Both the position numbers and the translations under genes were made by a program. 52,759 nucleotides of DNA, taken from the NCBI GenBank assembly GCA_903844665.1, contig CAIMUS010000288.1:1-52759 (forward strand), written 5' to 3'. Below the pieces are notes generated by a model. It worked only from the letters and a program-made list of their open reading frames with translations. It was not told the origin of the DNA and did not search any database. Position 1 is the stretch's first letter; the number at the start of each line of letters is the position of its first letter. Source of the stretch: an uncultured Pseudomonadota bacterium. GTDB taxonomy: Bacteria > Pseudomonadota > Gammaproteobacteria > Competibacterales > Competibacteraceae. Shown here piece by piece: positions 31,817 through 36,684 of the stretch.

Positions 31817-33325
31817 TTACTCCTCCTTCTCAGAATCTGTTGCAACGCGGATCGAATAAAATGCGGACTCGCCGACTTGCCCCGGTTTGGGGCTTACCGG
31901 ATTGTCCGAATTCCAGCGGAAATTATGAATACGGTGATTCCTTGCAAATAGCTGGGCGACTTTGTTGGAGGCGAAGCCTAATTCAATCAAAAGGCATGCA
32001 GCAATCAGATGCATCAGCGTCGTGCTGACGAAATAAAGGTCCGAGTGTGTAGCGGCTTTTTTTTGTTGCTTGCCATCCCAGTGAGTGAAGTAGTTTCTCG
32101 TATGTTTTACTGTCGTCGCAAAGCCTACTTTATCGGCGACAAGTAACGATGTTGTCGGCTCTAACGCTTCCAGCAGTTCTTCAAGGCGGTTTTGTAGCGT
32201 CGGGGAATTAGACCACGTTAGCTTTTCGCGGAGCCATTCCCTTTCACTTTCGGGTACCGCGTCAATAATGCGTCTGGTTCTATCTCTCCATTCATCCCGG
32301 GGCAGGATGGCGTTGTTGAAACGTGACCTATGATATAGCTCGGCCGCTTGCGCTAAGCTTAAAAATTCTTCTTCGAGATACTGTTCTCTAATGCTTGTCA
32401 CCGAGGAGTATAGGTTACAAACCATAGGAATATCTTTGATTATGCGGAACCAGTTGTTCACAAGTGGCCCCAAACTACCCCCCTCGATGTCTGTTTTTGC
32501 GAACAGCGTATCCTCAACAATCAGTTCTTTGTCATTTTCCTTTGTTTTTCTTCCCTTGAAGTAAACTCTGCATTCTTTGGGTTTCGTTGTCTCGCGTTCG
32601 TCAAAAACGCTAAATCGGGATATATCAATGGGCCTATCCATTGCGAGAGAGAACAAATCGCGCATGGGGCGAATAATATCAAGCCACCACTCAATGACCG
32701 ATTTTGGAGCGTTCGCAGCAATATCGAGATACGCCATCGGAGTTAATGTAACGGGCGTTAAAATACCTCCCTGAGTGTTGAGCCCAAACAATATCTTGAA
32801 TTCTAAGTCATTAGCCAAAAAGGTCTCTTCTGGGAGCGAGCGATACTTGTAAACTAGCTCATTTCCAATGGGCTTCCCCTTATCGTCCTTCCAGAATGTG
32901 ATGGTACGATCAACGATAATCTGCCTTAGCCACTCCGAAAAATGCTGAAACTGCAACCGAATTCGGCGGAAGCGGGCTTCGTCTTCTGACTCAAACAGTG
33001 CATCAAATATCAAGAAGTCGGCTTGGTTTTTCTGGAAGTTAATGAGAGTCGCGGGGCCGAGTTCGGTCCTTCCGCAGATGATCGGAAAGAACTCATTAAA
33101 GCTACGGTCTGTGTAGATGCCGTTTTCTGGCTTCGTGAGGAAGCCCAGATTATCGAATAGCTTTAGACAGGGACGTTCATCTTTTGAAACAAGTAGTACG
33201 CCGGGATGATGTGGCTGATCTCTTCCCGGCACCCACCATTTGCCTAAAACATCTATCTCCTCGGTTTCACCTAGAGGCATATAGTAGTCCTGCAGTAGAG
33301 AACTCCCATAACGATCACTTTTCAC
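31817..33325 (-). CDS. apeA: ApeA-type HEPN anti-phage defence protein
   Basis: The 502-residue protein has an ApeA N-terminal-like domain (VLGKWWVPG, then HHPGVLLV, FPIICGRTELGPATLI, RIRLQFQHFSEWL) and a C-terminal HEPN domain. The HEPN part runs from FLSLAQAAELYHRSRF to the RNase motif RNYFTH (Arg410-x4-His415). ApeA proteins stop phage by abortive infection, probably through HEPN RNase activity (family knowledge). The start is GTG 33325; the next Met is residue 16. It is flanked by attC sites 1 and 2, so it forms a 1.7-kb integron cassette with one gene. Confidence 0.8.
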   Translation of the reverse strand: MKSDRYGSSLLQDYYMPLGETEEIDVLGKWWVPGRDQPHHPGVLLVSKDERPCLKLFDNLGFLTKPENGIYTDRSFNEFFPIICGRTELGPATLINFQKNQADFLIFDALFESEDEARFRRIRLQFQHFSEWLRQIIVDRTITFWKDDKGKPIGNELVYKYRSLPEETFLANDLEFKILFGLNTQGGILTPVTLTPMAYLDIAANAPKSVIEWWLDIIRPMRDLFSLAMDRPIDISRFSVFDERETTKPKECRVYFKGRKTKENDKELIVEDTLFAKTDIEGGSLGPLVNNWFRIIKDIPMVCNLYSSVTSIREQYLEEEFLSLAQAAELYHRSRFNNAILPRDEWRDRTRRIIDAVPESEREWLREKLTWSNSPTLQNRLEELLEALEPTTSLLVADKVGFATTVKHTRNYFTHWDGKQQKKAATHSDLYFVSTTLMHLIAACLLIELGFASNKVAQLFARNHRIHNFRWNSDNPVSPKPGQVGESAFYSIRVATDSEKEE

Positions 33326-33542: not shown

Positions 33543-33971
33543 CTACCCTGGCTGATAATCGGACAGTAATTGGATATTGCCTATGTCTTTGGCTTTCCGA
33601 AAATACTGTTCATCAGCGGTTATCAACAAAGCGCCTGAGTGCAAAGCCACGGTATGGTAAAGGGTATCGAAGAGGTGATGGTTAAGGCGTATCGCTAGAG
33701 AACACGCGATCTTCCATAATGGTTGAGTTTCGGCCACGGAAATTATGCCCAATTCCTGCAAATCTGCAATGTCATCGACAATCGTGTCTGGCTTGAGGCG
33801 AACACCGACCGCCGCGACTTCGGCTAACCAATGGAAAGGCTGCCGCATAACTATTGTACCTGCCCGCAAAGCAGACAGCAAAGCTAAAGCCTCCGCTACG
33901 TTGTGTTCGTCGGGGTTTTCGGGAATCAGCCATTTGACAATCACGCTCGCGTCCAAGACATACTGGCTCAT
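33543..33971 (-). CDS. vapC: PIN-domain toxin, VapC family
   Basis: The 142-residue protein starts YVLDASVIVKWLIPENPDE with the first PIN acidic residue. Further acidic residues occur in LNHHLFDTLYHTVALHSGALLITADEQYFRKA, the C-terminal part of the PIN active site. VapC toxins are Mg-dependent RNases that cut tRNA or rRNA. The start overlaps the antitoxin stop (ATGA), so they are coupled. It is in the second integron cassette. Confidence 0.88.
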   Translation of the reverse strand: MSQYVLDASVIVKWLIPENPDEHNVAEALALLSALRAGTIVMRQPFHWLAEVAAVGVRLKPDTIVDDIADLQELGIISVAETQPLWKIACSLAIRLNHHLFDTLYHTVALHSGALLITADEQYFRKAKDIGNIQLLSDYQPG

Positions 33972-34300: not shown

Positions 34301-34993
34301 CTATCTCTGAAGAAGATTAGTGGTATCAGTATTCATCTTTTGAATATAAATGCTATATCTTTTAAGAGGTTCTGGATTTGAGTTTATTAAAGCTTTTTTA
34401 ATATCAGCAATGATCTCTTTAGATGCTTTTGTTGTAGTTACAATAGATTGCGAAAGATCATTGGCTATAGTCATTTTATCCTTAACAATATCAATTTGTT
34501 CATTGTCCACAATTTTCTTAAGTTGGGCAACTCCAGGTACTTTTGCTAACAAGGGATTATGTATGACATCTTTTACGTTGTCGCGAACTTCTGTGGTCAC
34601 TTGAACATATTTATAAACAGATGTCATAACTTCTGCAACTTCGTTAGCATACTTAAATGCGAGAGCTTGAAGATTATTTGCTAACTCTGTCATTTCAATA
34701 GCTGTGTTTTGTACAGTGTCTATCATATCCTTATTGCTCTTTATATTTTTGTTTAGTTCGCTAAGCTTTTTTATATCTTTAAAATAAAATAGAATAAGAA
34801 CTGGGAATATCAAAAGAATACCAACTCCAGCGAGTAAATATCTCGGCCAATTATCTAAATTGAAAATAGCAGCTATCAGAAGAAATAAGCTACCTACAGT
34901 TAAAAAGGTGAGCCCATAACCTCCAGCTTTATATGCCCTTACAATAGGTGTAGATATACTGTCCGACAACTTCTTTACAGAAACCTCACTCAT
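34301..34993 (-). CDS. Membrane and coiled-coil protein of unknown function (cassette gene)
   Basis: The 230-residue protein has two adjacent membrane helices, about 28-46 (GLTFLTVGSLFLLIAAIF) and 53-71 (YLLAGVGILLIFPVLILFY). A long helical, probably coiled-coil, C-terminal part follows (LSELNKNIKSNKDMIDTVQ, then ANEVAEVMTSVYKYVQV). I know no family name. It is strikingly AT-rich compared with the genes around it, typical of integron cassette cargo from another host. It lies between attC site 3 and the toxin-antitoxin pair. A defence or envelope role is possible but unproven. Confidence 0.65.
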   Translation of the reverse strand: MSEVSVKKLSDSISTPIVRAYKAGGYGLTFLTVGSLFLLIAAIFNLDNWPRYLLAGVGILLIFPVLILFYFKDIKKLSELNKNIKSNKDMIDTVQNTAIEMTELANNLQALAFKYANEVAEVMTSVYKYVQVTTEVRDNVKDVIHNPLLAKVPGVAQLKKIVDNEQIDIVKDKMTIANDLSQSIVTTTKASKEIIADIKKALINSNPEPLKRYSIYIQKMNTDTTNLLQR

Positions 34994-35042: not shown

Positions 35043-35102
35043 GTCTAACGCTCTAAGCTCAGCCGCCGGCGTAGCACGGTCGGCTGCAGCGTTCAGTTAG
35101 GG
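35043..35102 (-). other. attC recombination site 3
   Basis: The minus strand of this 60-bp site starts CCCTAAC (first base departs from RYYYAAC) and ends GTTAGAC (fits GTTRRRY). Inner arms GCAGCCGACCG and CGGCGGCTGAGCTTAG pair. The spacing to site 2 (1.6 kb) defines the cassette with the membrane protein and VapBC. Confidence 0.82.
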
Positions 35103-35431
35103 CGAACGTGGTTTTCAGAAACTCACCGTTTCCGAACCGCCGCCCTGCCTTGAAACAGAGCACAACGGGGTTCACGTCGCTACCGACCGGGTGCTCTTAT
35201 CGCACCCCACCCGCCGATTTTTACCACCCCAACAGTCGGTCGGGGTGGAGAGAAAAACCCACCCGCCCTAACGATAGGGGATAAGCTGCGAGCGGCAATT
35301 AGAACTTCAAGGTCTACCATGACGCTGAACGGTCCAAAGAATGGGGACCCTTCAATAACCACCTTCCCTGCCGCTCGTCAGCTTGATCCCCTGGTTCTTC
35401 CGCAGCCTGTGGAATTTTATCTTTGAAAAAT
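35103..35431. ncRNA. Structured non-coding segment upstream of attC site 3 (candidate RNA)
   Basis: No coding gene is supported in these 329 bp. A hairpin pairs CCACCCC (35224-35230) with GGGGTGG (35242-35248). A 21-bp stem with two single-base bulges joins 35277-35297 (GGGGATAAGCTGCGAGCGGC) to 35369-35391. Inside it GGTCC and GGACC (near 35331-35349) form a further hairpin. Such nested pairing looks like a folded RNA or a non-coding cassette. Strand and expression are unknown. Confidence 0.4.
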
Positions 35432-35553
35432 TGACAAAATCACAAAAATCCTTAACGAACGGGCGCGGCTACGGTCGCGTACACGCATCAACGCATGTTA
35501 TGCGTGTACGCGACCGTAGCCGCGCACTTTAGCCAATTTTTGTGATTTTGTCA
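35432..35553. repeat. 122-bp bipartite perfect palindrome
   Basis: An outer 18-bp stem pairs 35432-35449 (TGACAAAATCACAAAAAT) perfectly with 35536-35553. An inner 26-bp stem pairs 35463-35488 (starting GCGCGGCTACGGTCGCGT) perfectly with 35500-35525 around an 11-nt loop. Unpaired spacers of 13 and 10 nt separate the two stems. There is no terminal target duplication that I can see. It could be a MITE-like element, a cruciform-forming recombination site or a transcribed hairpin. Confidence 0.85.
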
Positions 35554-36117
35554 TTTTTTTCATTAGCTTATCCATAGGCTGTCGGAAAGAACCAGTGATT
35601 GAACAGTTCTATTTATCTCACCATCATCCCCCGTCACCTGTCAAGCAAAAATTCTCGGTTGACGGTAGCGGGTTGCCTTAAAAAGTTGTTTTTCTGCAAC
35701 AAACCGATGAGATTTTTTTAAATTTTATTCTATATCAATGTCTTAATAAATTTTAATAAAAAGTCACGATTGAGCAAGAACGCCTGCTTCACGACCGTTG
35801 GCTGTCTGTTTATCATTACCTACCGCAAGATAAACAGCTTCCGGATATCATGACATGCTTACCATCCCCCCTAAGCTGGGCCGTCGGTACGACACGTGGC
35901 TGGAGCGCAAGCCCGGTAGGGTACGCAGTGCGTACCTTTTCCGGGCCTTGCCCGGTATGGCGTGTTACCAGTCTTATGCAAGGAATGAGGGTACGCGGTG
36001 CGTACCCTACGCTGGGGTTGATGTGGCGGTATGATAGCCAAGCCCGGTAGGTTGGCCCCAGAATATATCCGACATGCACGACCACGACCTGGAAAATCAT
36101 CAGACAACACTTTGCTT
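35554..36117. other. Intergenic stretch with dispersed repeats
   Basis: No gene is supported. It is AT-rich to about 35800. It then holds a hairpin (CTGTTTATC near 35806 and GATAAACAG near 35829) and a copy of the GTACGCA repeat (35915-35960) with a partial inverted copy (35989-36010). The Rpn-like gene starts after it. Confidence 0.55.
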
Positions 36118-36684
36118 ATGAAGAAGAAATCAAATCGAACGACCGCTGACCTGACCAATCCACATGACAAATTTGTTCGGGAAGTCTGGGCGCGGGAGGA
36201 AGTCGCCTGGGATTTCCTCAGCCGCTATTTACCGCCAGCCATTGCCAGTCGGCTGGCGCCGGGGTCGCTGCGACTGCGGAAGGACTCGTTCATCGATGAT
36301 GCGCTGCGGGAACATCTCTCGGACCTGCTCTATCAGGTGCGTTTGCAAGGCGGCGGTCAAGCGTTGGTCTATGTCTTGCTGGAGCACAAGAGCTATCCTG
36401 ACCCCTGGCTGGAGTGGCAGCTACTGAATTACCTGGTGGAAATCTGGCGGCAGGAACGGCAGCAGAAAAAGCGGCGCTTGACGCCGGTGATTCCGCTGGT
36501 GCTGTACCATGGTCGGCGACGCTGGCGGGTCGTGCCCTTGCGCCGACTGTTCGAGGCGGCTGCAGGGCTGGAGGCTTACATTCCGGTAGTCCACTATGAA
36601 CTCTGTGATGTAGGGCAACTGGCAGACGAAGAATTACAAGGAATCGTTTTATTACACCTGAGCACGCGCACTGATCCGTCATGA
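36118..36684 (+). pseudogene. 3'-truncated Rpn-family (PD-(D/E)XK) recombination-promoting nuclease
   Basis: The 188-codon frame starts at ATG 36118 and contains NPHDKFVREVW, FLSRYLPPAIASRL, LRKDSFIDDALREHLSDLLYQV, LVYVLLEHKSYPDPWLEWQLLNYLVEIWRQ and VIPLVLYHGRRRW. These are the Rpn/transposase_31 core with active-site SDLLY and LLEHKS. Family members run to about 290-330 residues. Here homology breaks off at LADEELQGIVLL and the frame stops four codons after it meets new sequence, its TGA overlapping the pyrC ATG. It is therefore cut by the junction with pyrC. The nuclease core could remain, but I treat it as a broken gene. Confidence 0.75.

Follow-up and report, generated by a model that had tools for sequence, protein, structure and literature searches.

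A probable gene-less integron cassette with a self-complementary body beside attI in a Competibacteraceae genome

The window, a stretch of 52,759 nucleotides from the genome of a Competibacteraceae, wastewater-type bacterium, carries a cassette array on its minus strand (Table 1). The first cassette (35272-35591, minus strand) is inserted at attI and is followed by a second gene-less cassette and by the genes for three predicted proteins. The PIN-domain protein probably represents a toxin-antitoxin cassette, and proteins of the ApeA kind are known in anti-phage defence. The ends of cassette 2 are also mutually complementary (z -4.8). When the region of this cassette was searched against the genome, 48 matches were obtained, and several genome copies of cassette 2 were observed at 79-92%.

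On the other side of attI, the integrase-like gene of the window is present only as a remnant, and integrase fragments occur elsewhere in the genome. One related fragment matched PF13495 (integrase N-terminal domain) at E 6.4e-5, just below the curated cut-off, and another gave no domain hit. A putative Rpn/YhgA-like transposase or nuclease (PF04754) lies at 36031-36684 on the plus strand.

Table 1. Features of the cassette array and of the inverted repeat, in window coordinates.
Feature	Position	Strand	Remarks
Integrase-like gene remnant, start	35855-35911	+	About 19 codons left; unrelated repeat DNA follows
attI-like flank ...CAATCACTG|	35592-35650	-	Sequence shared with other array starts in genome
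Self-complementary cassette body	35394-35592	-	199 nt, from attI crossover G|TT (G = 35592) to attC R'' AAC (35394-35396)
Arm A, 18-bp AT-rich stem	35536-35553	-	Pairs with 35432-35449
Promoter-like pair ATGACA-17-TAAAGT	35526-35554	-	Reads down the array; 9/12 consensus; 3 such sites in region, 0.9 expected
Arm A, 26-bp GC-rich stem	35500-35525	-	Pairs with 35463-35488
Tip motif GCATAAC-ATGC-GTTGATGC	35485-35503	-	AAC/GTT pair, unpaired G
Arm B, 26-bp GC-rich stem	35463-35488	-	Partner 35500-35525
Arm B, 18-bp AT-rich stem	35432-35449	-	Partner 35536-35553
attC-like hairpin of cassette 1	35266-35400	-	AAC ... GTTAGGG; crossover after G = 35272; z -6.1
Cassette 2, gene-less	35049-35271	-	attC-like end near 35043-35103
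Next array gene, 230-aa predicted protein	34301-34993	-	No family above cut-off
PIN-domain (VapC-like) protein	33543-33971	-	Domain search
ApeA-like protein	31817-33325	-	ApeA_NTD1 and HEPN_Apea domains; within or adjoining cassette array

An earlier note on this DNA, made from the sequence alone, had described a bipartite perfect palindrome of 18 bp plus 26 bp. Both arm pairs are indeed exact: the 18-bp arms are inverted copies whose sequence has only these two occurrences in the 4.88-Mb genome (genome-wide search), and the 26-bp inner arms, read from the sequence, match throughout. The inner arms extend to 31 nt (35458-35488/35500-35530) at 94% in a repeat search. The feature is larger than first noted, as 35391-35595 matched its own reverse complement at 79%, and the four arms lie in the interior of a single inverted repeat of 199 bp. 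The DNA fold of this repeat reached -75.2 kcal/mol, compared with -25.3 ± 3.5 kcal/mol for 200 dinucleotide shuffles, none of which was as good (z -14.1); the claim that the palindrome is far beyond chance was thus confirmed. The search for more copies within the genome yielded this single full copy, together with a shorter piece of one arm on contig C203.

The 199-bp repeat is very probably the body of the first, gene-less cassette of the integron array on the minus strand. On that strand it starts at CAATCACTG|GTTC, i.e., at the attI crossover, and the homologues agree with a start at G|TT beside attI. The attI-like flank was also found on five other contigs (E 1.6e-7 to 0.023; genome search), where it adjoins cassette-like GTTAG starts or equivalents as well as integrase-like gene starts. 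At the opposite end, the attC-like hairpin gave z values of -6.1 and -5.3 in two fold tests; its outer AAC/GTT pair is absent from the minimum-energy structure in the window and is formed in two relatives. The longest ORF overlapping the cassette has 60 aa and extends beyond it. A terminator, already discounted in the earlier note, is not indicated either: the 26-bp stem was not reported by terminator prediction, which returned one weak site in arm B (35398-35414; 2 in the region, 1.0 expected). No known structured RNA of Rfam 15 matched the window at the gathering score.

Homologues were sought in 96 genomes, of which 11, the window genome included, matched at E <= 0.01. Convincing relatives were G021 and G033 with full palindromes, and G011 and G015 with one arm each. 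A further full homologue, in a Chromatiaceae MAG (CSSed11_194), was found among 28 loci matching a pattern in genome contigs, five of which were judged relevant by context and 23 attributed to chance. From crossover to AAC, the four full copies measure 199, 200, 201, and 197 nt; all have the attI-like flank before them and end on R'' of an attC-like hairpin. Since full homologues exist in three other assemblies, the structure is not a one-off assembly error; sequence error had been named in the earlier note as a possible refutation. In the Chromatiaceae copy, the stem sequence is mostly different and the pairing is still present. A small peptide, MDKLMKKMTKSQKLAKVRGYGRVHA, readable in arm A, was rejected as a candidate product: an extra base interrupts it in G021, and the Chromatiaceae copy lacks it. 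In the Chromatiaceae MAG, the region immediately behind the palindrome cassette (contig L094, 5494-7610) holds a XamI-like restriction gene and an adjoining frame that reads, by eye, as a DNA cytosine methyltransferase. With stricter filters, a covariance model run on 369 class genomes recovered the window genome only; no match to the palindrome was found in the plasmid search, and two patterns found none in viral contigs.

The tip of the palindrome may represent a collapsed attC, i.e., R'' and R' without L arms. Two single-arm copies bear on this point. In G015, arm A runs from attI up to CATAACAGGCG|TTAGGC and is followed by another cassette, and in G011, arm B begins with G|TTGATGC right after a large hairpin, read as attC. 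Both copies break exactly at the tip G|TT, the outcome that would be expected from IntI exchange at the tip, in two cases only.

A second group of palindromic cassettes emerged when 39 family genomes were searched with the covariance model and the tip pattern GCATAACN{2,6}GTTGATGC. The pattern gave 17 hits in 10 of the 39 genomes and none in the reversed control; three hits were assigned to the same type as the window palindrome and 11 to the second type, and three were judged by their folds to be chance. Weaker covariance-model hits on one contig were dropped as coding sequence. The second type occurs in G019, G011, G015, G034, and G004, with some copies cut by contig ends and one having a degenerate start. 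Its sequence is unrelated to that of the first group, with the same layout, a tip of GCATAAC-N2-4-GTTGATGC, a position at attI, and a length of 212-215 nt in the eight copies in which both ends could be set. At three second-type loci, a long IntI, aligned over 335, 335, and 316 residues, is oriented away from the palindrome, the one adjoining G019:C23 scoring 490 bits with TIGR02249; two loci carry IntI fragments of 50 and 59 residues, and the remaining ones gave no IntI match within the DNA examined around them. When the tip pattern was applied to 369 class genomes, 22 places in 19 genomes were obtained, five of them in the family, against seven genomes in the reversed control. The 17 places outside the family were counted as chance because their flanking arms agree in at most 11 of 30 positions.

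The first position was also surveyed across the integrons of the family. TIGR02249 matches were present in 23 of 39 genomes, above the cut-off in 18. Among 30 loci examined, six had too little upstream DNA, attI could not be placed in nine, and 15 were read by eye. The first cassette was self-complementary from G|TT in eight of these 15 readable integrons and not in the other seven. Three of the eight were second-type cassettes, and five began with a short hairpin (27 or 31 nt) and had a larger one behind it. Such short, perfect GTT...AAC hairpins, often at attI, were seen at L180, L184, L187, and L202, and also inside arrays or flanks at four further loci (L179, L198, L166, L182). The short hairpins could be this layout reduced to its minimum, or a different element. 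They are treated as a lead only, since no clear central spacer interrupts the pairing of the larger hairpins that follow, and these may not represent attC sites of the standard kind.

In the alignment of the four full sequences, both partners differed in 21 of 71 pairs and no pair had a change in just one partner, and 97.2% of 281 pairing cells were retained as pairs. None of 500 shuffles reached 21 double changes, and slid structures gave 0 to 4; the consensus structure is at an advantage here, having been taken from these aligned sequences themselves. The three close copies show four mirrored pairs and two one-sided ones. When each of the four sequences was folded singly, both-sided changes numbered 6, 5, 4, and 5, and one-sided changes 4, 2, 5, and 11. 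Paired columns varied less than unpaired ones in three of these four folds (16/156 versus 12/43, 12/146 versus 16/53, and 13/154 versus 15/45 variable columns; p 0.0001 to 0.006), and the fourth showed no significant difference (21/164 versus 7/32; p 0.18). Alignment columns 111-112 are mismatched in the relatives and perfectly paired in the window; on this alignment, part of the perfection of the window palindrome is local. Recent origin, which the earlier note had offered as one explanation of that perfection, is not supported, since homologues in other genera and in one other family keep the pairing by compensatory changes. Because palindromes with matching changes in both arms stand at the same place in the relatives, the folded shape seems to be maintained for the sake of some use.

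The best reading, which we put at an even chance, is an ORF-less cassette moved by IntI, with a self-complementary body that is maintained next to attI as a folded DNA element. According to parts of PMC8946536, recombination of attC takes place on a folded single strand, preferably the bottom one, with replicative resolution. IntI would move the cassette through the cassette's own attC. As a single strand alone is exchanged, the self-complementary strand could form a long hairpin directly against that of attC, and the single-stranded cassette would then be folded throughout; a tip of the collapsed-attC kind would still be cuttable at G|TT. The fold would then act at the DNA level beside attI, in capture, folding, or retention at the first position, and would be retained for this action; for such a DNA-level role the scales are level. 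The sequence evidence pointing to this reading consists of the boundaries, the attC-like hairpin, the attI position, the same-place homologues, the compensated stems, and the G|TT breakpoints. Further points in its favour are the second group, with its matching layout and tip at attI, the eight self-complementary first cassettes among the 15 readable integrons, and the lack of any overlapping ORF longer than 60 aa. The earlier note was right in raising a possible link to a recombinase or a regulatory hairpin.

Several observations count against the DNA-fold reading. The integrase gene of the window is a remnant, the single-sequence folds include the one-sided changes given above, and a promoter-like site lies within arm A. 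The cassette body pairs with R'' and could therefore compete with the folding of attC. Very stable hairpins can also be cut by SbcCD, according to the part of PMC8946536 drawn on here. Mismatch counts on the sense strand, from sums omitting three near-duplicate second-group copies, were G-U 6 and A-C 11 in the first group and G-U 44 and A-C 21 in the second. The G-U excess of the second group leans to RNA; the sense/antisense comparison did not separate DNA from RNA constraint.

This excess also speaks for a promoter or leader cassette, which is possible but rather doubtful. The promoter of arm A would read down the array, its transcript would open with a stable GC-rich 5' hairpin, and the role would mainly be downstream expression; arm B might in addition hold an antisense promoter directed towards attI and the integrase. 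Besides the promoter-like pair in arm A, TTGACA is retained in the Chromatiaceae copy, and TTGATT-17-TAAAAT or TAAAGT, similarly oriented, is present in the second group. Passages of PMC11014356 and PMC8876359 describe gene-less cassettes that carry promoters. However, G033 and the Chromatiaceae copy have a weaker -10-like hexamer, the variable stem pairs of the first group are without G-U in all but one pair, and a promoter leaves the pairing of the whole 199 nt and the exact extent from G|TT to AAC unexplained. A Frpo-type single-strand promoter was rejected, since the promoter-like hexamers point towards the tip.

Unlikely, too, is a gene-less cassette that is neutral or selfish: a cassette body duplicated in inverted orientation, without function, in which template-switch (quasipalindrome) correction maintains the likeness of the arms. 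Such homogenisation of arms is documented in the literature, as far as the sources drawn on extend, and both the adjacency of the mirrored changes at columns 76-78 and the repair of columns 111-112 in the window alone would agree with it. In contrast, the lower variability of paired columns in three of the four single-sequence folds, the arm-specific loops persisting across genera, and the repeated placing at attI speak against it. A MITE or other transposable element, suggested in the earlier note and matching the presence of inverted repeats without a gene, is most improbable, because all four full copies end at integron crossover points (G|TT and the attC R'' AAC) and no transposase or target duplication was seen, while the genome has one full copy and the plasmid search gave no match; a rolling-circle site, proposed alongside it, is likewise unsupported.

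Returning to the folded DNA element beside attI, a broader proposal can be advanced tentatively: a class of fully self-complementary, gene-free cassettes, each folding as a single strand from crossover to R'', with an IntI-cuttable collapsed-attC tip, placed repeatedly at attI and possibly controlling capture or retention. Little is understood of the gene-less cassettes of integrons. A conserved, compensated hairpin body at attI offers an example, open to testing, in which selection would act on the fold of a cassette and not on a gene, and it bears on the capture, first-place retention, or expression of single-strand cassettes. In the open literature on integron palindromes, hairpins, inverted repeats, ORF-less cassettes, Competibacter, and MITEs, no description of self-complementary cassettes was found.

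With the ORF-less cassettes of Vibrio superintegrons (PMC11014356) and of Treponema and others (PMC8876359), as far as the portions cited describe them, the window cassette shares crossover boundaries, an attC, and the lack of a gene. Its body differs in being a single inverted repeat from the crossover to R''; the portion of PMC11014356 used here mentions no hairpin, palindrome, or inverted repeat of cassettes. With attC sites, it has in common the imperfect palindrome, the AAC/GTT boxes, and the single-strand DNA fold. As the earlier note had held, the palindrome is nevertheless distinct from attC: its order is GTT...AAC and not AAC...GTT, its stems are continuous over about 200 nt without L boxes or the R''-L''-L'-R' arrangement with an unpaired central spacer, and a separate attC-like hairpin follows it. 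With quasipalindromes under template-switch correction, it shares the imperfection of the inverted repeat and the perfectly identical patches within it, but the window element is conserved over genera at one place defined by recombination.
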